A stretch of DNA of 37,413 nt from a virus. The DNA lies in IMG/VR virus record IMGVR_UViG_3300020471_001081, positions 1 through 37,413 of that record; one strand, given 5' to 3'. The notes beneath the pieces were generated by a model. That model did no database searches. It was not told where the DNA came from and saw nothing but the letters and a program-made list of their open reading frames with translations. The position numbers were made by a program, and so were the translations under genes. Below are positions 6,286 through 33,676 of the stretch, piece after piece (within the stretch, counting starts at the first letter, position 1; each line of letters starts with the position of its first letter).

Positions 6286-7539
6286 TTAGTAGATTCTATA
6301 CCCAGTTTGGCCCAAAGTTTCGGGTTTGGCTAAGTTAAATTGCTGGAGACATAAATAACCGAAAGCATCGAAAGCGTGATCAACACCAAGATTTTTATTT
6401 GGTAGTCCTGTGTTCGGGGCATAGGTCAAAGTTCGTAAAGATTTGATGAGTTCTTTGCATCGGGGGTGGATATAAGTTCTTCTTATGCCTGATGCGTCGT
6501 ATAGGGCGGTGTTGACTGCTGTTATTTTGTCTCGGATTTTCCACGGGGCTTTTGGGGAGGAGACGTTGAAGCCGCTTCTTCGGAGGATGCTGTGGTCTGT
6601 TGCTCCGACTCCTGCTGTTTTCCTGGCTCCTCCAGTTGGGTCGGGGCAGGCAACAATTCTACGGTCCACGCCATATCTGCGGATTACTTCTTCTGCGAAA
6701 TCCCAGGTTGTTGCACCTCCAGTCATTATTATTTCGTCGAAAACGTAGAGTTTGTCTTCGTCTTTTACGGCACAGATGCCTGACATGGGATCTACGTTGA
6801 AATCGACTCCTAAAAGGATGGGCATTATGGATATGTCCTTGGCTTTTGTGGAGATATTTTCATCGGAGAATGAGACTGCGACTAGACCCGTGAGATTCTC
6901 AAAGCTGGCCTCAAATTCTTGGCGAAATGTGCGTTGATCTAGTTGAGCACGGGCAGCTTGTACTTCTTCTGCTGGTACGTTTCCTCCTTCTATTGTAGTA
7001 AAACTCCAGCGATTCCACTCGCCTGTTGCATCATCTGGGACGTAGCACCATAGGTCGTAGAACCAGCTTGCTGTGCCGTCGGGTGTGGAAATGAATAGTG
7101 CCCAGCCTTGTTTGTCGGCTAGGGCGGGTCGGATGACCTCGAACCAGACCTCGGAATCCATGAAGGCGGCCTCGTCTAGGACTACTCCAGCGAGGCTTCG
7201 GCCACGGAGAGCCATTGCGTTTTCGGTTCCCTTTAGTTCGATTGTGGAATCGTTGATGAGTTCTATTTTTAGGTCGGTTTCGTTTTTGGATTTGACCCAT
7301 TCTTTTGGGACAAGTTTTTTCATTTCTTTCCAGGCGATGTCTTTTGCCATGCGGTAGGTCGGGGCACAGTAAAAGTAAGTTTCTCCTGGTCTGGATATTG
7401 CTGCTTTTAGGAGTTCGATGCAGGAAAGGTATGATTTCCCGAAGCGGCGGCCAGCGACTAGGACTCTAAATCGCTTTTCATTATTGAAGACCTCGCCTTG
7501 TGCCCAACGTAAAGATAGTGGTTGTGTTTTTACTGCCAT
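6286..7539 (-). CDS. terL: Terminase large subunit
   Basis: The 417-residue packaging motor has an N-terminal ATPase with Walker A AGRRFGKS (residues 29-36) and Walker B VVLDEA (119-124, with D122 and catalytic E123), then motif III FISTPDG at 149-155. The C-terminal RNase H-fold nuclease shows acidic residues D246 (LLGVDFNVDP), D300 (ACPDPTGG) and D388/D391 (GVDHAFDAF). All expected catalytic residues are present, so it should be active. It docks on the portal, translocates DNA and cuts concatemers. It is the first gene of the leftward structural module. The candidate small subunit sits next to it but on the opposite strand. Confidence 0.95.
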   Translation of the reverse strand: MAVKTQPLSLRWAQGEVFNNEKRFRVLVAGRRFGKSYLSCIELLKAAISRPGETYFYCAPTYRMAKDIAWKEMKKLVPKEWVKSKNETDLKIELINDSTIELKGTENAMALRGRSLAGVVLDEAAFMDSEVWFEVIRPALADKQGWALFISTPDGTASWFYDLWCYVPDDATGEWNRWSFTTIEGGNVPAEEVQAARAQLDQRTFRQEFEASFENLTGLVAVSFSDENISTKAKDISIMPILLGVDFNVDPMSGICAVKDEDKLYVFDEIIMTGGATTWDFAEEVIRRYGVDRRIVACPDPTGGARKTAGVGATDHSILRRSGFNVSSPKAPWKIRDKITAVNTALYDASGIRRTYIHPRCKELIKSLRTLTYAPNTGLPNKNLGVDHAFDAFGYLCLQQFNLAKPETLGQTGYRIY

Positions 7540-13562: not shown

Positions 13563-13594
13563 AAAGTTAAGTATTTACAAAGGAATTGTATCAC

Positions 13595-16069
13595 ATGAGT
13601 AAGCATCAACAACTATTAGAATTCGTCTCTAATTGTCCTTCTGATTGGTCCACGTGCCCGATATATGCAAAGGGCGTGACTATGAAAGATGGGAAGGTAG
13701 CGAAGGGTAAGTCACCTTATGGAGAAGCTATAAAGCCAGGTGCACATTGGTCCCCTTCAAGATCTGCCTTATTAATTGAAAGAGAGCCAGAAAATTTCAA
13801 AGCTTTTGGAGTATTTACAGGTGTTGCGAGTGGTGGTTTAACCATCTTCGATGTTGATTACAACCTTGGTGCAATTAAGAAAAAATGGGGCAAAGATTTA
13901 GAGAACGCTCCAACGATTACTTCTAATAAAAAGAACGCTGCAAAATATCTTTTTATTGTTCCTGAAGAAGATCGCTTAATTGTTAAGGGGATTTCACATG
14001 TAGCTGCTGATAAAGAAGGCTTTGAAGTTTTGTGGGGAAGGCAAGGTGTTTTATTTGGTGCTTATGGTGGACACGAACCAACTAAGACTCCTGAAGGGAT
14101 ATATAAATTTGAAGGAGATTTAAACAATATTCCTGTTGCTCCAACTTGGTTGTTGGAAAGGATGAAAGAGCAATACAGAAAGGAAAATGAGGATAGGCCA
14201 AAGAGAAGATTGAAAGATACTCGTTGGTCTAAACGAACCAAGGAAGAGAAGGTCATTATTGCTGAGAATTGCTTGAGTGTGATTCCTCATAAGGGTGCTT
14301 ACTCGGAAGAGTATTGGTGGCAGATAGGAGCGATGATTAATTCGGAGCTTCCTGGGGAAGAGGGTTTAAAAGTTTGGGAGAATTGGTCTAAGCAAGATCC
14401 TGAATACTCTTACTGCTGGTCTGTTGGTAATCCGTGTGAGCAGAAATGGAATAGGAGATGGAGGAGTGGTCCTGGTCTTGGTTTTGGAAGTCTTATTCAG
14501 TTGGCTGATGAGGTCGATCCAGAGAGAAAGAGATTTCAGAGAGACGATATATCAGCTTTAGTTGATGAGATAGAGGCTGTTGCTCAGAAATGGAAGCCTG
14601 AATATATCGGTGGTGAAGAATTAATTGCTAGGGGATTGGATCTTGAGGAAGAGATAGAAGATCCTGCTCTACTTGACCAGGCTAAAACTGTGCTTGCTAT
14701 GGAAGCTGGACGGGCCAGGGAAGGGGCTGTAGCGATTGATAGGTTGATTGATGCTCATCTGTCTTACAAACGTAATGCAGGGGGAAAGCCTAAAGATGTG
14801 GGGGATTTGGATGACACAGCTTTTGAGTATTTGATTCCTGGGTTATTACCGAAGCCTTGGTTGCTTTTGATTCATGCAGATGGTGGTACTGGTAAATCTG
14901 CTATGTGTCAGACACTTTGTAAGCACATCAGTCAGGGAAGAGATTTCAATGTGCATGGAGGAATGGTGGATATATCGAAGGGAAAATGTCTTTGGTTGAA
15001 TGGAGATCAGAGTGAAAGGATTACGAGGAGGCAGTTTAATTTGATTGGTGTTGATAGAGGTGTTGATGTAATCGGTGAATGGGATATGGCTTGGTATAGA
15101 AAGTTTTGCAAGATTCAAGGGGGCGGTCCAGGGAAGAAGGGAAGATATGACTTGATTGTTATTGACAGTCTTGATGGTTGTAATGACTCCAATCCTTATG
15201 AGGAAAACAGGAGAGAGTATGCACTTCCTTTAAAGAGATTGGCTAGAAGAAATGGTCAGGACTTTGGTGCTTGTTCAATTATTGTGATTCACCACAACAA
15301 CAGGAACGGTGGTTTTAGAGGAACATCTGCAATTAAGGCTGCTGTAGATGAAACATGGAATATGCAGAAGGTGAGTAAAAAAGAGTTAGCTGAAATGGCA
15401 GCTCCTTTTAACAGCAGACTTGTAACTGTGGAGAAATCAAGAGATGACAGGGAAGGACAAAGGATGTTGTTTAGTTTGCTTCCTGATTACACATATATCA
15501 TTGGTCCCGTTCCAGAAGGGAAGGATACTCAGAAGGACAACACTCCTAATCAGCACATGCTGGATATTCTTCAGTTGATGAGGGAGGAGAGAGTTCCTTG
15601 GTCTGCGGATTTATTAACTGATCACGAAAAAGTTGGAGGTATGCACAGAAAACGTGCCATCAGATATAGCCTCTCGAAGTTGCTTGCTCAGAAGTTGATT
15701 GTTAAGTGTGACGCACCAGAAAATATATCTTTTAAAGGCCGTCCACCTGCTTTTTACATGGCTCTTGGTACGAACCTAAAAACCTTCAGAAAAAGGGCAG
15801 TTTCCTTAACGCCCGATAATAGTAGTGTATTAACTCAAACTTCTTCTGCTGGAACGGATCTTATTGACAAAACGGAATTGTCAAAAGTCCCTTTTGTCAA
15901 AAGTCCTGGCTCGGATAAAGTAGAAGCAAATACTTTTGACAAAAATAGTTTTGACAAAACACCGATTGTCAATAAGAACGCTTCTGCTGGAACGGAAAAG
16001 AGTTTTTACACTCCCACACACAGACATAGGGAAAATGCACAAAAGTTCTGGAACGATCCAAAACCATGA
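13595..16069 (+). CDS. Bifunctional primase-polymerase / replicative helicase
   Basis: ATG 13595 gives 824 residues. The N-terminal archaeo-eukaryotic Prim-Pol domain shows the metal motif FDVDYN (D86 and D88), an AAKYLFIVP strand at about 115-123 and GVLFGAYGGHEP at about 151-162. A PriCT-like helical domain follows (about 225-310, with YWWQIGAMINSELPGEEGL). The C-terminal RecA-like ATPase has Walker A DGGTGKS at about 430-436 and Walker B LIVIDSLDG at about 519-527, followed by VIHHNNRNGGFRGTSAIKA. The last 100 residues are disordered and Ser/Thr/Lys-rich. It would unwind and prime the phage chromosome for the family A polymerase. The DNA of the tail carries an iteron-like cluster. Confidence 0.9.
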   Translation: MSKHQQLLEFVSNCPSDWSTCPIYAKGVTMKDGKVAKGKSPYGEAIKPGAHWSPSRSALLIEREPENFKAFGVFTGVASGGLTIFDVDYNLGAIKKKWGKDLENAPTITSNKKNAAKYLFIVPEEDRLIVKGISHVAADKEGFEVLWGRQGVLFGAYGGHEPTKTPEGIYKFEGDLNNIPVAPTWLLERMKEQYRKENEDRPKRRLKDTRWSKRTKEEKVIIAENCLSVIPHKGAYSEEYWWQIGAMINSELPGEEGLKVWENWSKQDPEYSYCWSVGNPCEQKWNRRWRSGPGLGFGSLIQLADEVDPERKRFQRDDISALVDEIEAVAQKWKPEYIGGEELIARGLDLEEEIEDPALLDQAKTVLAMEAGRAREGAVAIDRLIDAHLSYKRNAGGKPKDVGDLDDTAFEYLIPGLLPKPWLLLIHADGGTGKSAMCQTLCKHISQGRDFNVHGGMVDISKGKCLWLNGDQSERITRRQFNLIGVDRGVDVIGEWDMAWYRKFCKIQGGGPGKKGRYDLIVIDSLDGCNDSNPYEENRREYALPLKRLARRNGQDFGACSIIVIHHNNRNGGFRGTSAIKAAVDETWNMQKVSKKELAEMAAPFNSRLVTVEKSRDDREGQRMLFSLLPDYTYIIGPVPEGKDTQKDNTPNQHMLDILQLMREERVPWSADLLTDHEKVGGMHRKRAIRYSLSKLLAQKLIVKCDAPENISFKGRPPAFYMALGTNLKTFRKRAVSLTPDNSSVLTQTSSAGTDLIDKTELSKVPFVKSPGSDKVEANTFDKNSFDKTPIVNKNASAGTEKSFYTPTHRHRENAQKFWNDPKP
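15843..15996. repeat. Iteron-like cluster inside primase-helicase gene
   Basis: Two exact 16-base direct repeats, CTTCTGCTGGAACGGA (15843-15858 and 15981-15996), flank six copies of a TTTTGACAAAA-type site. Plus-strand copies are at 15864, 15934 and 15949; minus-strand copies are at 15878, 15892 and 15966 (left ends). Three are perfect 11-mers, and the core TTTTG-W-CAAAA is itself symmetric. Copies on the two strands encode different residues, so the repetition is at DNA level. This looks like initiator-binding iterons of a replication origin. Confidence 0.55.
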
Positions 16070-16697: not shown

Positions 16698-16861
16698 TGA
16701 ATAAATTTACTTCAGAGGAACTAGATCTTCTTTATAACTTGGTTCGTGATCAACATGACGATGTTATGAGAGGAGATTGGGATGCAGTAAAAGATGAAAT
16801 ATCTGAACTGCACTTAATCATGCACAAGATACTTAAGTTTCAAAAAGGAGGAAATATATAA
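16697..16861 (+). CDS. 54-residue helical protein
   Basis: ATG 16697 overlaps the previous TAA by one base. The product begins MNKFTSEELDLLYNLVRDQH and is helical and acidic, ending KFQKGGNI. Its last codons contain the AAGGAGG ribosome-binding site of the next gene. No function recognised. Confidence 0.6.
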   Translation: MNKFTSEELDLLYNLVRDQHDDVMRGDWDAVKDEISELHLIMHKILKFQKGGNI

Positions 16862-17031
16862 TGAATAAAAAACTAATCAAATTTGAATTTACTGAAAAAG
16901 AAGCAGCCTATCTGTATGAAGAAATTCATAGAATAGAAGGCTATGTAGGAATTTTAGGATTAGAGGATGAATGTGAACCTTGGGTTATATGCAACAAGTT
17001 TTGTAAACAGTATAAGGAGCAAATCAAATGA
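16861..17031 (+). CDS. 56-residue protein, unknown function
   Basis: ATG 16861 is preceded by an AAGGAGG ribosome-binding site at a good distance, and the stop overlaps the next ATG (ATGA). It begins MNKKLIKFEFTEKEAAYLYE, contains three Cys residues in its second half and is mostly helical. It resembles the small phage proteins that regulate or accompany replication genes, but no family is recognised. Confidence 0.65.
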   Translation: MNKKLIKFEFTEKEAAYLYEEIHRIEGYVGILGLEDECEPWVICNKFCKQYKEQIK

Positions 17032-18007: not shown

Positions 18008-18233
18008 AGAGCTACAAATTCAAAGAGCTTTATCAGAAGCTTTTAATGAATTAAACACGAAAAAGGAAGCTATTTACAAAAAACACACCCTTAATCGTGC
18101 ACAACAAAGTACTGAGGAATTTGAAAAATCCTGGCAGTACTATGAAGGATACAGAGACGCAACAATGGCTCTCTTAGAACATTCAATCTCCCTCGGAAAA
18201 CCCACTCAACTGGAGCTTAACTTAAATGTCTGA
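17994..18233 (+). CDS. 79-residue helical protein
   Basis: Begins MDLIEELQIQRALSEAFNEL and is helical throughout with a basic middle. The C-terminal TQLELNLNV is reminiscent of a short clamp- or polymerase-binding peptide (QL-[DE]-[LF]-like), which is speculative. It overlaps the upstream gene by 14 bases and the polymerase gene by eight, so the products are made together. Function not known. Confidence 0.6.
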   Translation: MDLIEELQIQRALSEAFNELNTKKEAIYKKHTLNRAQQSTEEFEKSWQYYEGYRDATMALLEHSISLGKPTQLELNLNV

Positions 18234-20058
18234 CTACAAAGTGTACTACGGTATTGAGAACCTACATCTTCTTGATACCTGCATAACGATAGCGTTTGAT
18301 ACGGAAACGCTCCAGCTACAACCAGAAAAGGGGAAGCTCAGACTTCTTCAGATTGGTTGCAAAGAACGGAACACAATCATAGTTATTGATTGTTTTGAAT
18401 TAGAGGAAAGGGACTGGAAGTATCTGGAACGATTCTTTGATACTCCTCGTTTTTGGATTGCCCATAATGCTGTGTTCGATATTGCTTGGTTGCAGGAGTA
18501 CAACATTCACCTAAAAGGAACGCTTCGATGCACAATGCTTGCAAATCGTTTACTTACAAATGGGATACCAGCTTTAAAACATGGATTAGATAGTGTTGTT
18601 AAAAGACACTTAGGTATTGAGTTATCTAAGGAACAACAAAAATCTGATTGGAGCGTACCTGAGTTAAGTGAAGAACAACTTGAGTATGCAGCCAAAGATG
18701 TTGAAGTTCTTTTGGAATTAGACAGGAAGCTGGAAGACAAGATCAACTATGGACAGCTTGATATTGCAGAAGAGTTAGAGGTTAGAACTATTCCTGCTCT
18801 TGCTCAGATGTGGAGAACAGGTCTTCCCTGGAACAAAACTGCATTAGAGCAGTGTCGCTCTGATTATGAATATGATGTGGAGCAACTTGGAAGAGAGTTC
18901 TTAATCAAATTAGATGAAGCTTTGCCTGAAGATCAAAAGCTTCCTAGAGATGGTGACGATGACATGGCTCCATTTAATTTACGAGCCAAGGATGAAGGTT
19001 CTATTCGGTTAGGGACTAAAAAATATAAGGGGTTTAATTTGAATAGTCCAAAACAGTTGCTTGAAAAATTTACGGCTGTGTTAGGTGAGGAGCCTAAAGA
19101 CTCTAATGGAAAAAAGAGTGCTTCAAGGCAAGCATTGAGAGGGTATGCAGCAGACCATGAAGTAATTCAAATTTACTTGCAATGGAAGCGCACAGAAAAG
19201 AGAAGGCAAATGGTGACTTCTATTCAGGAGAAGATGGATAATGATGGATTTGTTCGAGCTTCATATATGCAGCTTGGAGCAGATACAGGTCGGATGAGTT
19301 GCATTAAGCCGAATAATCAGCAGATTCCTAGGGATGATTCTTTTAGGCAATGTGTTCAGGCTCCTGATGGTTGGGTGCTGGTAGATGCTGACTATGGGCA
19401 GATGGAATTAAGACTTGCTGCTGCATTAGCGGAAGACGAGAACATGATTTCTGTGTTTAAAGAAGGTGGTGATTTGCATGAATACACAGCACAGGCAATG
19501 GGTTGTGACAGGCAGGTAGCAAAATCCGCAAACTTTGGTTTGTTGTATGGGGCAGGTGCAGATGGCTTGCGAAATTACGCAGGTGCTAGTGGCCTAACTA
19601 TGACAAGAGATGAAGCTGCCAAGATACGCAACGACTGGCTTGGCACGTACCAGGGAGTTAGGGATTGGCAGAGAGAAAACGCCGAGGAAGCTGATCGTAC
19701 ACAGAAAAATGAGAAGCCTTACATAAGGATTCCCGTGTCAAAAATGAGACGATTTCTTCCAGGCGATTTGAACAAAATTACGGTACGATGCAATACCCCA
19801 ATACAGGGGGCAGGTGCAGCAATATTGAAGAAGGCTTTAGGGGAACTTTGGCCTGTGGTTAAAGAAGCAGGAGAAGACACCGTTCGTATTGCAGCAGCGA
19901 TACATGACGAAATTCTTTTGTTGGTTAAAGAAGAGGAAGCGGAAAAGTGGGCAGCGATATTGAGGGAAAAAATGGAAGAGGCAGAGGCTATCTGGCTCGG
20001 AGAAATACCTGCGTTAGCAGAGACATCTATCGGCAAAACATGGAGGGAGGTCCATTGA
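18226..20058 (+). CDS. DNA polymerase, family A, with 3'-5' exonuclease
   Basis: The 610-residue enzyme has an N-terminal DnaQ-like proofreading domain: FDTET (D25, E27), HNAVFD (N81, D85) and YAAKD (Y154, D158). The palm contains motif A VDADYGQMELR with catalytic D389; the usual DYSQ serine is a glycine here. The O helix reads RQVAKSANFGLLYG (residues 429-442) with Phe at 437, the position equivalent to E. coli Pol I Phe762, and Tyr at 441. Motif C is IHDEILL (H560, D561). There is no 5'-3' exonuclease domain, as is usual for phage replicases. It works with the primase-helicase and ssDNA-binding protein in this window. Phe at the 762 position has been linked to virulent phages in virioplankton surveys. 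Confidence 0.95.
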   Translation: MSDYKVYYGIENLHLLDTCITIAFDTETLQLQPEKGKLRLLQIGCKERNTIIVIDCFELEERDWKYLERFFDTPRFWIAHNAVFDIAWLQEYNIHLKGTLRCTMLANRLLTNGIPALKHGLDSVVKRHLGIELSKEQQKSDWSVPELSEEQLEYAAKDVEVLLELDRKLEDKINYGQLDIAEELEVRTIPALAQMWRTGLPWNKTALEQCRSDYEYDVEQLGREFLIKLDEALPEDQKLPRDGDDDMAPFNLRAKDEGSIRLGTKKYKGFNLNSPKQLLEKFTAVLGEEPKDSNGKKSASRQALRGYAADHEVIQIYLQWKRTEKRRQMVTSIQEKMDNDGFVRASYMQLGADTGRMSCIKPNNQQIPRDDSFRQCVQAPDGWVLVDADYGQMELRLAAALAEDENMISVFKEGGDLHEYTAQAMGCDRQVAKSANFGLLYGAGADGLRNYAGASGLTMTRDEAAKIRNDWLGTYQGVRDWQRENAEEADRTQKNEKPYIRIPVSKMRRFLPGDLNKITVRCNTPIQGAGAAILKKALGELWPVVKEAGEDTVRIAAAIHDEILLLVKEEEAEKWAAILREKMEEAEAIWLGEIPALAETSIGKTWREVH

Positions 20059-25301: not shown

Positions 25302-25883
25302 TTAAGTAAAAGAAAACCATCCAGTAATAATGTGTTTTTCTAAAGTATGGCTAACTCTTCCACGGTGAGTATGTGTCCAATCACAAGGCCAAATAATTGT
25401 ATAGCCTTTTTGGGCTGGTATATAAAGATTTTGATGAAACCATTCAGTGCCACCATCAGGGACATCATTAAGATACGTCATCCATGCTAAATGCCTATAA
25501 ACAGTATTAGGTGAAGCATTAGTTCTTTCTGTATGCCAAGCTTTATAACCACCTGACACTGGATAAGATTGCATCCTCATGCCTTGCATTAGTTCAAATC
25601 TTGATGTCTTGCAAAAAGGAAATTTATTACAATAGCTATTTAGTACTGTTTGTAATGCTGCTAAAAAGTTTTGAATATGTGGCACATTTATTTGATGAGG
25701 GATATATAAATCAACAGAATCTTTTACGTTTTTATCAACATTAATATCACCCTTACTATTATAACTTTGACCTTTTGTAACAGGCAAAAATGTCTGTTGC
25801 TTTTTAAATTCTAATAAGTTATCACATATTTTAATGTCTATAAAATCACCCCAAACAAAATCAGTACTCTTTTCTTTTTCCAC
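25302..25883 (-). CDS. 2OG-Fe(II) oxygenase, prolyl-hydroxylase type
   Basis: From GTG 25883 the product is 193 residues. It carries the 2-oxoglutarate/iron pattern: MRMQSYPVSGGYKAWHTE with metal ligands H117 and E119, TYLNDVPDGGTEWF, then GYTIIWPCDWTHTHRGR with a second His (H171 or H173) and a downstream K183 for 2-oxoglutarate. Such enzymes hydroxylate proteins or nucleic acids. The first carboxylate is Glu instead of the common Asp. The gene follows another oxygenase gene by one base, so the two are coexpressed. They are frequent in T4-like cyanophages, where no clear target is known. Confidence 0.75.
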   Translation of the reverse strand: MEKEKSTDFVWGDFIDIKICDNLLEFKKQQTFLPVTKGQSYNSKGDINVDKNVKDSVDLYIPHQINVPHIQNFLAALQTVLNSYCNKFPFCKTSRFELMQGMRMQSYPVSGGYKAWHTERTNASPNTVYRHLAWMTYLNDVPDGGTEWFHQNLYIPAQKGYTIIWPCDWTHTHRGRVSHTLEKHIITGWFSFT

Positions 25884-25884
25884 T

Positions 25885-26523
25885 TTATTTGAACCAGTTA
25901 GTATCTAAGGTTGAATCATGCCCAGTGCCAAACTTTCCAACAGGGAAAAAATTACAGGCTAAAGATCTTCTTGGAATTGATGATTTGAACGGAGGATGAA
26001 AATGTTTTAGATAACTAGGAAAAAATAACATTAATCCCTTTTTAATAGGAGCTACATACGACACACAAGTAAATGGATTGTCATTCTTAGTTTGAACAAA
26101 CCAACCATTATTTAATTGTTCATTGATTGGATTAGTAAAATGCAATTGAGCATGATCTTCTGAACAAGTATCAAAGTATAGAACAGATGAATACAAGCAA
26201 TTTCTATGATTATGTATAGCCATCTCTTTACCGTCTTTATTTTCAGTAATCCATGATGTTGTTATCATCCATTCATGAGGAACTCCAAGAATACTATTGA
26301 CCCAAGAAGCAAAAATATCTGTTATAGCTTGCTTTGTCTCTAGGTTTTTATCTAAAATTCTCCAATCAATATCTTCTTTAGCCTCCTTAAATTGTTTATC
26401 TTGATCTTGCATCATTCCTTTGTAATCTTTTAATTGATCACATATTTCATCAGGAATTTGCACAGCACCTATTGGAATACAAAAAGCACTTACAGTATTA
26501 ATTTCTAACTCATTAGCAGTCAT
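25885..26523 (-). CDS. 2OG-Fe(II) oxygenase, Oxy_5-like family
   Basis: ATG 26523 gives 212 residues; a GTG at 26544 is less likely. The segment TTSWITENKDGKEMAIHNHR holds metal-ligand candidates H104 and H106. It is followed by SVLYFD and later KKGLMLFFPSYLKHFHPPFK (second His, H174 or H176) and RRSLACNFFP with a probable 2-oxoglutarate-binding Arg. This is the layout of the putative 2OG-Fe(II) oxygenase family PF13759 seen in phages. It overlaps the upstream membrane protein gene by 11 bases and lies one base from the second oxygenase. Substrate unknown. Confidence 0.7.
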   Translation of the reverse strand: MTANELEINTVSAFCIPIGAVQIPDEICDQLKDYKGMMQDQDKQFKEAKEDIDWRILDKNLETKQAITDIFASWVNSILGVPHEWMITTSWITENKDGKEMAIHNHRNCLYSSVLYFDTCSEDHAQLHFTNPINEQLNNGWFVQTKNDNPFTCVSYVAPIKKGLMLFFPSYLKHFHPPFKSSIPRRSLACNFFPVGKFGTGHDSTLDTNWFK

Positions 26524-27070
26524 TCCATTGACCAGCAAGATCACTACTTAAATTGCCAACCTGCTTTCTTGCTTGCCCAAAAAATATTCCAGCTAATACT
26601 GGCCCTACTATTGGAACGCTGGCTATAGCTGGTGTTACTTGAACGCTTGCACTATCAGCAATCAGTTGACCATTAGAGCGACCTTGTGCCATTTTTTCAA
26701 TACAGGCAATCTGATCTGCTGAAAGTTTTCCGTCCTGTCCTTTCGGATAGATTGCAAATTGAGCTACATCTTGTTTATGTGTATATCTCTTCTTAATCCC
26801 ACCATTAAACGTAGGCTTGGAATCATCAATGATAGTTGTGACTAGCTTTGGATCGTGCTGCTTAGAGTTAAACATCCACTCTTCTGCACCATCAGGCTTA
26901 GTCTCACTCCTGATTTGAATTGAACTATAAGGAGTACTAGAAAGCTTGGCAATGTCTGGAATGCCAGAATCTTTACGAGCCAGAAGATTAAGGCTCATAA
27001 AGTTTGTAGCAATTAAACCACCGCCTAGAACAAGAGAAGTTAGGCCGTTAAATGACTTAAATTGAATCAC
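26513..27070 (-). CDS. 185-residue membrane-associated protein
   Basis: Begins MIQFKSFNGLTSLVLGGGLI, with an N-terminal membrane segment, and has a second hydrophobic stretch near the C-terminus (AIASVPIVGPVLAGIFFG, about residues 145-163). The middle is basic and Ser/Thr-rich (TTIIDDSKPTFNGGIKKRY). It overlaps the oxygenase gene and the upstream membrane-protein gene. Similar double-anchored proteins occur in cyanophages near tail genes, in my recollection. Function unknown. Confidence 0.6.
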   Translation of the reverse strand: MIQFKSFNGLTSLVLGGGLIATNFMSLNLLARKDSGIPDIAKLSSTPYSSIQIRSETKPDGAEEWMFNSKQHDPKLVTTIIDDSKPTFNGGIKKRYTHKQDVAQFAIYPKGQDGKLSADQIACIEKMAQGRSNGQLIADSASVQVTPAIASVPIVGPVLAGIFFGQARKQVGNLSSDLAGQWNDC

Positions 27071-29164: not shown

Positions 29165-32100
29165 TTAAGTACCGAAGTCGCCTCCATCAAATACTTGTGT
29201 TGATGACACTGTACTCGAACCATTATCAAAATTGCCACCATCTATAAGAATTACACTACCTGCTGCATCTTGCCAGCTAGGAGCTGCACTTGCACCGCCT
29301 GAAGTTAATATCTGTCCACTTGTTCCGTAATTAGCTCCACCGACTCCTAATTGGCCTGAAGATCCGAAGCGGAATTTTTCTGAAGCACTAACACCAAACT
29401 GTCCAATATAAAATATTACATCAGAACTTGCATGTCCAGATGCTATGTCTAAATCAGTATTAGTACCTTCATGACCAGTGATAGATTGAGTTTCTGTCCT
29501 ACCAGCTACTGTAAGAAGGTTTCCAGGAGAAGCATCCCCAATACCAACCCGATTATTTGTAGCGTCAACGTGAAGTGTATTTGTATCGACTGTTAGGTTT
29601 CCACTAATGCCAAGTGAAGTAAGCGTTCCAACAGAAGTGATCGCAGATTGAGCAGCACCCGTAACACTTGCAGCCGTTCCAGTTGTGTCTTGGTTGAGTG
29701 TTGGAACCCTAGCTGCTGCAATCGTTCCAGAAGATATATTTGATGCGTTTAATGCACTTGATGAATCAAGAACAGTCGAGAAGCTGGTTCCATTATTTGA
29801 TGACCATCTAAGAGTTGCTCCTACAGACAGAATCGTTGAATGTTCTACGTTTTGAGTAAAAAATTCTCCAGCACTAGCCTGCCAAATCAAATAAGCCTTT
29901 AAAGTTGTATCTTCGTAATAAGTAATTCGAGGCTCAGTACTGCCTTTTAGTTCTATCTTTGTTCCACCAGCACCACTACCATCAATTATTAATGGAACAG
30001 GAGTAGAACCAGATCCATGACTTATTGTTAGTCCTCCTGTAAGAGCTAAATCAGTTCCATCAAAAGTAAGGTTAGCTTCTCCAGTTAAAGTATTAGTTGT
30101 TCCAGTAGCAGTAATAATTCTGTTATCTGACTGATTATTAATTGTTATCGCAGCAGGAACAGCAGACCAAACTGGGTCAGCACCTGAACCTTGCGTCTTT
30201 AAGAAATACCCGCTTGTACCAGCAGCTAATCTTTGATCTCCAGAAGCATCTCTAAATAAAATGTCTCCTTGAGTTGTTAAAGGAGTTGAATACTGAGAAA
30301 TACTTCCCCAAGTATTATCACCTCTTAAATAAGTGGAACTTGAAGTTGTCCCACTTCCTAATCTCGCTGCTGCAACAGTTCCAGAACTTAAATTCGATGC
30401 GTTTAATGTTGTTAAAGAAGCACCTGAACCACTAAAGGTAGTCGCTGTTGCTGTTCCTGTTATCGTTACACCTGTTGCAGTAGTTTCAAGCTTTTTAACA
30501 GCCACACCAGCAGCATTCCCGTCGTAAAGTTCGACTGAACCATCACGATGAAGCCAAAGACCAGGCTCACCTCCTTTAGGTTCAAGTCTTATATCTCCTA
30601 CTCCGTTTTGAATATATAAATCGGTGCTGTTATGGAAAAGAGTACTAGTGCCAAACTGAGCCTTGGCTTCATTTTCAAATATCAAGGAATCTGCTGACCG
30701 ATCAAAAGTTATATCTCTACCTGTTGTCGCTCCCTCAAAAATGACATCACCAGTTAATGTTCCACCTGTTAAAGGAAGCTTAGTATTGTCAGTTGCGTTA
30801 TCTGTGCCCCAACTTAAATTTCCTGATCCATCTGTCTTTAAGAACTGATTTGCACTTCCATCACCATCAGGAAGAGTCCAAGTAATATCAGCCGTTACAG
30901 AATCAGGAGCTTTTAAACCTAGATAATTTGCACCGTTTGAATCTGCTTCGCTAAATCTAACTTCTTTCGCATTATCAAGTATTAAATTGCCAGTCATTGT
31001 GTCACCAGCTTTTTCAACCGCAGCATTAGCAGTTGTATTTGCTGTATTAGCTAAGTCATAAGCAGTTTTAACAGCGTTAGGAGTGGCAGCAGTAGTGGCA
31101 GAAGTTGAGCTTGTGCTATCCGTTAACTGCAAGACACCGACAGCACTTGTTGTTCCAGTGGCAATCTTTGATCCTGTAATTGCAGCCGATCCAGATATGT
31201 CAGCGTCAACAATGACTCCAGCAGCAATAGCTGTGAGTCCTGCATTGTCTATGCTTATGTCTCCTGTTACTGCAACTGCTGTTGCCTCATTTGAGGCATT
31301 ACCAACAAGGATTTGAGCAGAAGTTAAAGCAGCTAATTTTGTAAAAGCAATTGCAGCATCACTCTTTATATTGACATTCTGAATTGTGTCATTAGCAATC
31401 ATTGTGCTATTAACAGTTCCAGTATCTCCACTTGTAATTACTGTTCCAGTTACGTTAGGCAAAGTAATAGTTTTATCTGACGTTGTTGGATCGGCAACTG
31501 TTAAAGTTGTTTCATAAGCATCAACAGTAGACCCTTCAAATACAAGGCTTCCAGTATTACCAATTAACACCTGACCTGTAACAGTACCACCAGCTTTTGC
31601 TAGTTTTTCTGTCTCTAATTCTTGAAGTGCATCTTGCAAATTAGTCGCACTAATTTGTCCATAAGGTGTGAAAGTAATGTTACTCGCAACTTGCCCAGCT
31701 ACGGTCTGCGATAAATCGACCTCATTCCATGATGATCCAGCACTATTTGTTACTCCTAAAATGTAATCAGGTGGAGCAAAAGCAATAGCTGGAGCAGGAG
31801 AAGCTGGCGTTCCAGAAGTTGCTACTACAACATAAACACCGTCTGTAGTCGATGAAGGAGTAGGTAGATTAGATCCAACTGCCAAACCAGCCGCAATTCC
31901 TGCGGAGGTAGTTGCTACCATCTGGCTCGTACTTGCGTTGTAGGTTCCACCAAAAACGAGACTTCCTTTGGTTAAGGTAGTAATTGCTTGCCAAGCGTTG
32001 CCGTCCCAGATGAACGCATCTTCAGAAACAGTATCAAAAAGAATTTGACCTGAGAACTGAGCTGTTGGATAACCGCTTTGAGCTATAGATTGAAAGACTG

Positions 32101-33676
32101 CTGTAGAAGTATTGCTTAGTTTTGTGCCATCAATTGAATCATTTGCAATTCTCGCAGCATCAAAACTTCCACTTGTTATTTTGCTTGCAGCAAGATCAGG
32201 AATTAAAGCTGCTGTTAATGCTGCACCTGCTGTTGCTACACCCTTATTATTTACAGTGATTGATTGATATGTTCCAGCACTAATTCCACTTGTTGAAGTC
32301 GCTAGATTTCCTGAACCATCAACAGTTAATCCTCCTCCAGATGTGATTTGAACTGCACCTTTGGCACTTGTTGTTGATACTGGGAGGTCGCTGGCTACTA
32401 AAGCCGTGGCAGCAGTGATTTGACCAGTATTTGAGAACGTGATTCCAGAAACAGTTGCACCAGTTACGCTATTTGACAGAGATAACGCACCAGCTCCGTT
32501 AACCGCTAAACCAGTACCAACAGAAACACCACCAACAGCAGAAGTAGTAGCAACAGGTAAATCAGCAGCAGCAAGAGCAACAGTTCCAGTGATGAGTCCT
32601 TGAGCGTTATATGTAATACCTGATCGAGTAGCAGCAGTGATTACGTTATTAATTCCAAGATTGCCACTAGCTACGTTTAATGAACGATCCAGATTAGAAG
32701 TATTGAATTTTGCAGCAGTAATTGTTCCGTCAGCAATCTTCGCATTAGTTACAGCGTTTGCAGCGATTTTTGCCTCTATAACGGCATTACTTTCTATGGC
32801 TCCAGAGTCAACAGCATTATCAGCTAAAGCATTTGCATCAACAGCGTTTGCAGCAAGTTTTGTACTATCAACAGCATCATTATCAAGTTTTGCAGTTGTA
32901 ACAGCACCATCAGCAAGAGTTCCAGCTTCAATTGTTCCTGAGAGCTTGGCGGTTGTTATAGCGTTATTTGCTATCTGGTCTGTTCCAATTGTCAGGTCTG
33001 CTATTTGAGCACTTGTAATCGTGTTATTAACAATATTTCCAGCAGCAATAGTATTGCTTGCAATTTTGGCTCCAGTAATTACTCCACTAGCAATTGCATT
33101 TGCATCAACAGCGTTATCTGCAAGTTCTGTGGCAGTAACAGAATTTGTTGCTAATTGAGTCGATGTAATTCCACCTGCTGCAATCTTTGCTCCAGGAATA
33201 TCTCCATCACTTAAATTTAATTTTGCATAAGCAATTGTTGTATTAGCAATTTTGTCATTATCAACAGCAAGATCAGCAATAGCAGCATTATCTACAGCAT
33301 TATCAGCAAGTTCAGAAGCAGTTATCGCATTAGCGGCTATTTGTGTAGCAGTAACAGTATCGTCAACTAACTTTGCTCCAGTTATCGTTGCGTTTGCTAT
33401 CTGAGTCGCAGTTATTGTTCCGTTTGCAATCTTTCCAGCAGTTACAGCTAAATTCTGAATTGTTGCTGTCGCTACAGCATCAGTAGCAAAGGGAGTAGCA
33501 ACCTTGGCAGCAGGAATATCTCCAGAATCTAAAAGTGCTACAGCAGCAGCTACTAAGTCTTTTACAGTTACTTTTTTTGTCTCGGTAGCACTGAGATCCG
33601 CTAGGGCTAATACATCAGTTGCTTGAATACCAGCTTCACCAAGGGCAGGTAAAGCACTTATCTGAAGATCAGCCAT
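29165..33676 (-). CDS. Giant repetitive tail fibre protein
   Basis: The 1,503-residue product starts MADLQISALPALGEAGIQAT. Residues about 70-340 are imperfect repeats of about 12-18 residues (ADNAVDNAAIADLAVDNDKI-like), which suit a triple beta-helix or spiral shaft. Later come fibre modules with TLPNVTGTVITSGDTG, EKAGDTMTGNLILDNAKE, DGDGSANQFLKTDGSGNLSW and repeated ASN[LI]SSGT[VI]AAAR. The C-terminus holds two near-copies of an FDGGDF-type motif (IDGGNFDNGSS and VFDGGDFGT). I see no Peptidase S74 chaperone end. It attaches to the tail tip and reaches the receptor, probably with the next two genes. Confidence 0.85.
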   Translation of the reverse strand: MADLQISALPALGEAGIQATDVLALADLSATETKKVTVKDLVAAAVALLDSGDIPAAKVATPFATDAVATATIQNLAVTAGKIANGTITATQIANATITGAKLVDDTVTATQIAANAITASELADNAVDNAAIADLAVDNDKIANTTIAYAKLNLSDGDIPGAKIAAGGITSTQLATNSVTATELADNAVDANAIASGVITGAKIASNTIAAGNIVNNTITSAQIADLTIGTDQIANNAITTAKLSGTIEAGTLADGAVTTAKLDNDAVDSTKLAANAVDANALADNAVDSGAIESNAVIEAKIAANAVTNAKIADGTITAAKFNTSNLDRSLNVASGNLGINNVITAATRSGITYNAQGLITGTVALAAADLPVATTSAVGGVSVGTGLAVNGAGALSLSNSVTGATVSGITFSNTGQITAATALVASDLPVSTTSAKGAVQITSGGGLTVDGSGNLATSTSGISAGTYQSITVNNKGVATAGAALTAALIPDLAASKITSGSFDAARIANDSIDGTKLSNTSTAVFQSIAQSGYPTAQFSGQILFDTVSEDAFIWDGNAWQAITTLTKGSLVFGGTYNASTSQMVATTSAGIAAGLAVGSNLPTPSSTTDGVYVVVATSGTPASPAPAIAFAPPDYILGVTNSAGSSWNEVDLSQTVAGQVASNITFTPYGQISATNLQDALQELETEKLAKAGGTVTGQVLIGNTGSLVFEGSTVDAYETTLTVADPTTSDKTITLPNVTGTVITSGDTGTVNSTMIANDTIQNVNIKSDAAIAFTKLAALTSAQILVGNASNEATAVAVTGDISIDNAGLTAIAAGVIVDADISGSAAITGSKIATGTTSAVGVLQLTDSTSSTSATTAATPNAVKTAYDLANTANTTANAAVEKAGDTMTGNLILDNAKEVRFSEADSNGANYLGLKAPDSVTADITWTLPDGDGSANQFLKTDGSGNLSWGTDNATDNTKLPLTGGTLTGDVIFEGATTGRDITFDRSADSLIFENEAKAQFGTSTLFHNSTDLYIQNGVGDIRLEPKGGEPGLWLHRDGSVELYDGNAAGVAVKKLETTATGVTITGTATATTFSGSGASLTTLNASNLSSGTVAAARLGSGTTSSSTYLRGDNTWGSISQYSTPLTTQGDILFRDASGDQRLAAGTSGYFLKTQGSGADPVWSAVPAAITINNQSDNRIITATGTTNTLTGEANLTFDGTDLALTGGLTISHGSGSTPVPLIIDGSGAGGTKIELKGSTEPRITYYEDTTLKAYLIWQASAGEFFTQNVEHSTILSVGATLRWSSNNGTSFSTVLDSSSALNASNISSGTIAAARVPTLNQDTTGTAASVTGAAQSAITSVGTLTSLGISGNLTVDTNTLHVDATNNRVGIGDASPGNLLTVAGRTETQSITGHEGTNTDLDIASGHASSDVIFYIGQFGVSASEKFRFGSSGQLGVGGANYGTSGQILTSGGASAAPSWQDAAGSVILIDGGNFDNGSSTVSSTQVFDGGDFGT
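32640..33480 (-). repeat. Imperfect repeats coding the fibre shaft
   Basis: This stretch encodes runs such as ITAAKLADNAV, NTITSAQIADLTI and NAITTAKLSGTI. The common pattern is [NT]-x-I-x(2)-[AS]-x-[IL]-A-[DN]-x-[AT]-[IV]. The DNA shows corresponding 36-54 base units (for example GCATTAGCTGTAACAGC-like words). Such repeats allow length change by recombination. Confidence 0.7.

Follow-up and report, generated by a model that had tools for sequence, protein, structure and literature searches.

An inverted array of short sites in the coding tail of a marine phage primase-helicase gene as a probable replication origin

What is the function of a tight cluster of near-identical short sites, placed on both strands close to the 3′ end of a phage primase-helicase gene? 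An earlier note on this DNA had taken the cluster for an iteron-like replication origin inside the gene, in the manner of the iterons of phage λ. The window analysed here is the entire record, 37,413 bases of linear viral DNA, and includes tailed-phage genes recognised by Pfam and PHROGs (terminase, portal, major head and tail-fibre). The bacterial and archaeal genomes searched contained no relative, the phage collection searched contained no close named relatives of this marine phage group, and a search of the window against Rfam gave no match. The genes that serve as landmarks are the following:

6286–7539: terminase (Pfam), about 8 kb from the array
13586–16069 (+): primase-helicase gene, 827 aa (P0001), likely start ATG at 13595
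18226–20058: DNA polymerase A, about 2 kb downstream of the primase-helicase gene

Near the 3′ end of the primase-helicase gene, positions 15864–15972 hold six perfect TTGWCAA cores, divided equally between the two strands, in a span of 109 bases or about 116 with their flanks. Both this cluster and the two exact 16-base repeats that bracket it were confirmed as the earlier note had described them. The exact 11-mer TTTTGACAAAA has three copies in the window, all within the array, at 15892 (−), 15934 (+) and 15949 (+). The elements are as follows:

15843–15858 (+): left bracket repeat CTTCTGCTGGAACGGA, exact 16-mer, conserved across word classes
15852–15984 (no strand): dyad (inverted-repeat) element with all six sites, from inverted repeats I3 and I4
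15864–15870 (+): outer site 1, TTGACAA, pairs with site 6
15878–15884 (−): inner iteron 2, TTGACAA, from the core scan
15894–15900 (−): inner iteron 3, TTGACAA, full 11-mer at 15892–15902
15936–15942 (+): inner iteron 4, TTGACAA, full 11-mer at 15934–15944
15951–15957 (+): inner iteron 5, TTGACAA, full 11-mer at 15949–15959
15966–15972 (−): outer site 6, TTGACAA, from the core scan
15981–15996 (+): right bracket repeat CTTCTGCTGGAACGGA, exact 16-mer copy of the left bracket
16003–16011 (+): degenerate seventh site TTTTTACAC, from the homologue alignment
16019–16031 (+): short downstream element CACAGACATAGGG, conserved 3′ of the array, also where the region is non-coding

As in iteron arrays, copies of one short word are clustered at defined spacings. 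Since the spacings (14, 16, 42, 15 and 15) and the strand order (+ − − / + + −) are nearly mirror-symmetric, the array is a dyad of about 133 bases. The dyad has a hairpin z-score of −6.4 in the window and is retained in all word classes found among the homologues. The seventh site reads TTTTGACGC in most homologues of the window's word class, and CACAGACATAGGG occurs only once in the window.

Of 500 sequences generated from a third-order Markov model of the window, none contained more than three cores in 125 bp. When synonymous codons were redrawn 20,000 times with the protein kept, six cores never appeared and five appeared twice. Over the whole window, with two mismatches allowed, the word is not enriched (43 matches versus 40.5 expected); the signal is the cluster, not the abundance of the word. 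Sites 1 to 6 encode IDK, LSK, FVK, FDK, FDK and IVN, respectively. Together with the synonymous null, this bears out the earlier statement that copies on the two strands encode different residues and are not explained by protein repetition.

A comparison with about 80 homologues taken from viral contigs shows that the DNA, and not the peptide, is conserved in the array. The GACAAA-type word occurs in all three frames among these homologues (FDK, LTK, CQK). The window reads TTT-GAC-AAA (FDK), L009 and its kin read CTT-TTG-ACA-AAA (LLTK), and homologues carry AAT-TGT-CAA-AAG, encoding NCQK, at the position of the window's ELSK. All three frames are present inside the single tail of L085 (DCQ, FVK, FDK, LTN, LSN). 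The earlier note had proposed to look in related phages for conservation of the 11-mer regardless of codon position, and would have been contradicted by homologues that keep the residues and lose the DNA words; the opposite was seen, with words that persist while frame and residues vary. In one subfamily (L028–L031), a stop codon follows the third site, and the mirror half lies beyond it, before the next likely gene, with the outer site, the bracket, the seventh site and the TATAAGGG element still recognisable. This gap is likely, rather than certainly, non-coding since a mechanical TTG-started ORF overlaps it in L029. The array of L034, which has a different word (CGGCAAAA), likewise lies partly past its stop. 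Between the window and L006 (84% identity), none of the 25 site codons with identical residues shows a synonymous change, versus 233 of 606 (38%) in the body of the gene; by our own arithmetic, the probability of this under the body rate is about 5e-6. Finally, when all IMG/VR contigs were scanned for a tandem pair of TTTTGACAAA words, 52 stretches were identified, 44 of them at genes of the primase-helicase family (39 inside the gene and 5 located 4–11 nt 3′ of it). The other eight were unrelated pairs without the remainder of the array.

The protein encoded by the gene supplies a candidate reader for this DNA. Its N-terminus is primase-like, with PriCT_2 at aa. 227–307, and a RecA-like hexameric helicase/AAA_25 domain is found at aa. 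413–575 (Pfam); PHROGs matches were to DNA primase and DnaB-like helicase. When the helicase part of the AlphaFold model was searched with Foldseek, the top matches were RecA-like (RSF1010 RepA, RadA and DnaB) and did not indicate an SF3/AAA+ helicase domain. A sequence search with profiles found no solved structure. The parts of the protein that concern the array are:

15545–15763 (+): winged-helix domain, aa. 654–726, proposed reader of the array (AlphaFold)
15662–15664 (+): codon of Arg693, in the predicted recognition helix (aa. 686–701); the residue follows the site word among homologues
15779–16066 (+): predicted disordered C-terminal tail carrying the array (AlphaFold)

A C-terminal winged helix after the helicase is the order found in SaPI/P4/pRN1-type primase-helicase initiators. 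The domain was predicted with a pLDDT of about 80–93 across an H-H-H-E-E arrangement, and its best Foldseek matches were mostly winged-helix proteins, none with an E-value below 0.01. For the tail (aa. 732–827) the pLDDT falls below 50, in line with the earlier expectation that the array-encoded segment is disordered. With iterons placed in such a tail, the DNA could be rewritten with minor consequences for the protein.

Between lineages, the word changes throughout an array while the layout stays the same, the three classes being GACAAA, TACAAA and C[CG]GAAA. In an alignment of the protein that ended with the winged helix, residue 693 was the sole column of 817 with disjoint residues across the three word classes. 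Since these classes had first been named from the residue, which is circular, the test was repeated on 81 distinct sequences with classes derived from DNA alone. Glu693 was accompanied by CCGG-type words in 11 of 11 sequences, Lys or Arg693 by GACA in 45 of 51 (the rest being two GGCA, one CCGGAGAAA and three unclear), and Val or Ile693 by TACA in 15 of 19 (the other four unclear). Gln693 was present in two sequences (L101 and L109), both with TACAAA words. The pairing at this position is therefore K/R with G, V/I/Q with T and E with C. L127 (CCGGAGAAA, Val at 695) departs from this pairing, as do the GGCA arrays of L034 and L129; seven sequences, L057 among them, have no clear majority word by these counts. 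Contacts of Lys or Arg with G and of Glu with C are textbook examples of protein–DNA recognition.

The covariation represents few independent events, namely a single clade for TACA and two or three lineages for Glu. The winged-helix tree needs three changes and no bootstrap tree contained a single Glu clade, a topology that is not rejected by the AU test (p-AU 0.077). Further evidence comes from module exchange. L033 and L026 are 93% identical over the first 300 aa compared versus 41% in the winged helix, and L081 and L021 are 91% identical over the first 300 aa compared versus 40% in the winged helix, with the L081 winged helix matching that of L022 at 78%. L033 and L081 each combine the body of one clade with the winged helix and array of another, the two having been swapped together. 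By correlation, the covariation at residue 693 and the joint exchange indicate a word that is specific to its cognate initiator, as is expected of iterons.

Since the winged helix of the primase-helicase appears to read an array in its own gene, the best account of the protein is that of an initiator whose origin is embedded in the gene. Sequence-specific binding by the winged helix is strongly supported by these comparisons, and the array that it would bind is probably the replication origin of the phage. Origin activity, physical binding, strand opening and bidirectional loading are what we infer from this arrangement. In the mechanism proposed, the C-terminal winged helix (aa. 654–726) would bind the four inner iterons, aided by the outer elements and brackets. 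The mirror layout would set two helicase assemblies face to face, or the dyad might open as a stem-loop. The RecA-like helicase would then unwind the DNA, the primase part would prime it, and the phage DNA polymerase A would extend.

Of the earlier proposal of an origin inside the primase-helicase gene, the part that stands is a codon-independent DNA element in an initiator gene, covarying with the winged helix; that the element is the replication origin is probable, and GC skew lends this no support. Cumulative skew follows gene direction and does not turn at 15.9 kb, and skew at four-fold sites is uninformative, likewise with no extremum at the array. DnaA boxes have three matches in the window, fewer than expected. 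No AT-rich stretch lies beside the array, where local AT is near the genome mean. As an AT-rich unwinding region was not found there, strict membership in the classical iteron-origin class is not claimed. The AT-richest 60-base windows (82%) are at 16829–16902 and 25786–25861. The first lies less than 1 kb downstream of the array and may be an unwinding region or plain intergenic DNA.

A winged helix bound to a dyad might also act as a regulator, with the array serving as an operator for transcription downstream (16066 to polA) or for read-through. Winged helices of this kind are common among regulators; further replication genes lie downstream of the array, and a conserved CAYAGGG-like element comes after it. 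However, the binding domain is here part of a primase-helicase fusion, and a symmetric array within an initiator gene looks like the origins of phages and plasmids. By eye, no normally spaced sigma-70 promoter was recognised adjoining the array, and the spacing between the seventh site and CATAGGG would be too short for sigma-70. An operator is an unlikely alternative to the origin.

The strong folding of the dyad raises the question of whether a hairpin is the conserved object, either as a 3′ structure of the mRNA or as a DNA stem-loop or cruciform recognised by shape. A shape-recognised stem-loop was proposed for the pRN1 origin, which requires a 100-bp stem-loop 3′ of the primase-helicase gene (PMC4234260). 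The dyad would form a stable RNA or cruciform hairpin, and folding is strong in nearly all homologues (median z of −5.9, −5.6 and −4.1 in the three word classes). Outer sites 1 and 6 resemble chiefly each other, with a likeness of 0.73–0.89 versus 0.56–0.75 to the inner sites. L057 (5789–6409), which has Arg693, carries CGCAA-type words in sites 1, 2, 5 and 6 and TACAA in sites 3 and 4, and these mixed words nonetheless pair within the dyad; its array is possibly transitional. The inner sites behave differently. Within the GACA class, the likeness among sites 2–5 is 0.95 for hairpin partners and 0.98 for non-partners, falling to 0.70 between word classes. The four share a word regardless of partnership and switch it with the recognition-helix residue, a pattern more in keeping with protein-binding sites than with conserved base pairing. 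A hairpin as the conserved object is quite improbable, and since a DNA stem-loop would still be an origin, that form of it would merge with the origin reading. According to the site comparisons, the dyad consists of four inner iterons, which are equivalent, flanked by two outer elements. The name iteron given in the earlier note suits the four inner sites; the outer two are related but of a distinct, paired type.

The bracket repeats, with a consensus of CCTTCCCCTGGAACGGAT in homologues, remain constant while the iteron word changes, and their binding partner may not be the winged helix. The downstream element, CACAGACATAGGG in the window, has the variants GTGTATAAGGG, ACGTACATAGGG and GGTTATATAGAGG in others, including L029 and L034 past the stop. 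It is similar to phage RNA-polymerase promoters at their start-site end; no phage RNA polymerase was seen among the scanned proteins.

Packaging (pac), partition or recombination sites also occur as clustered inverted sites, but such a role is very doubtful here with the terminase about 8 kb off, no partition gene among the proteins scanned, and a word that covaries with the primase-helicase winged helix. Equally hard to credit is that the repeats encode linear peptide motifs of the tail (FDK, LSK, SAGTD): the bracket repeats do keep one frame in most homologues, but this explanation was rejected as the words change frame and residues and run past a stop codon, and the synonymous null yields no such array.

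The occurrence of initiator and origin together has several precedents (PMC7581432, PMC4234260, PMC7466680, PMC3155836, PMC8263062). In λ and Stx phages the iterons are inside the initiator gene O, four in λ and six in Stx phages, and their number alters initiator length (PMC7466680). The sites here are also within the initiator coding sequence, only half of them in L028–L031, and to this extent the λ-like arrangement holds; the initiator, however, is a PriCT_2/AAA_25 primase-helicase and not a homologue of λ O. λ O, an initiator with neither primase nor helicase, recruits P and DnaB, and its iterons are mid-gene by an AT-rich tract (PMC7466680); the present array is an inverted dyad in the tail of a primase-helicase gene. 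SaPI Rep and SCCmec Cch2 are self-loading replicative helicases with a C-terminal domain that binds short iterons by the 3′ end of the gene; their origin is downstream of the gene rather than inside it, and their helicases are DUF927 and D5-like rather than RecA-like of the RSF1010 RepA type (PMC7581432). The pRN1 ORF904 and phage BIP-1 proteins share the primase-helicase-winged-helix order and an essential dyad or stem-loop of ~100 bp at the 3′ end of the gene, and a pRN1-like layout has been proposed in phages (PMC4234260). In contrast to the RecA-like helicase and coding-tail array described here, ORF904 has an SF3 helicase and a stem-loop outside the gene, and no shared iteron word was reported for pRN1 and BIP-1, in which the stem sequence is poorly conserved (PMC4234260). 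The origin of repABC plasmids is inside the coding sequence of RepC, whose C-terminus determines incompatibility, but it has an A+T-rich region and no iterons, and RepC is not a primase-helicase (PMC3155836). For the RepA_N initiator of PLE, the DNA-binding domain and iteron origin covary and are exchanged as a module; the initiator is not a primase-helicase fusion, and its origin is not described as inside the repA gene (PMC8263062). The present system differs from these precedents in its RecA-like rather than SF3 helicase, its coding-tail location, its mirror dyad and its evolvable pairing of word and residue.

A more tentative proposal is that the winged helix and the origin directly 3′ of it in the same gene form a self-contained, swappable cassette with a code at residue 693 (K/R for G, V/I/Q for T, E for C), in which a change of about 50 codons and one residue could create new, mutually incompatible replication specificities. 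The array points to where DNA replication probably begins in an uncultivated but widely sampled marine phage group. Its homologues amount to a naturally occurring set of initiator/site pairs that differ jointly by one residue and one base, a ready test of origin choice and of the evolution of new specificities. They also suggest a search rule, which is to look in the disordered tails of primase-helicases for inverted words that do not depend on frame. Elsewhere in the window, a 2OG-Fe(II) oxygenase family protein (PHROG 81) is encoded at 25885–26544 (−) and a tail-fibre protein of 1503 aa with a Phage_fiber_2 repeat at 29165–33676 (−).
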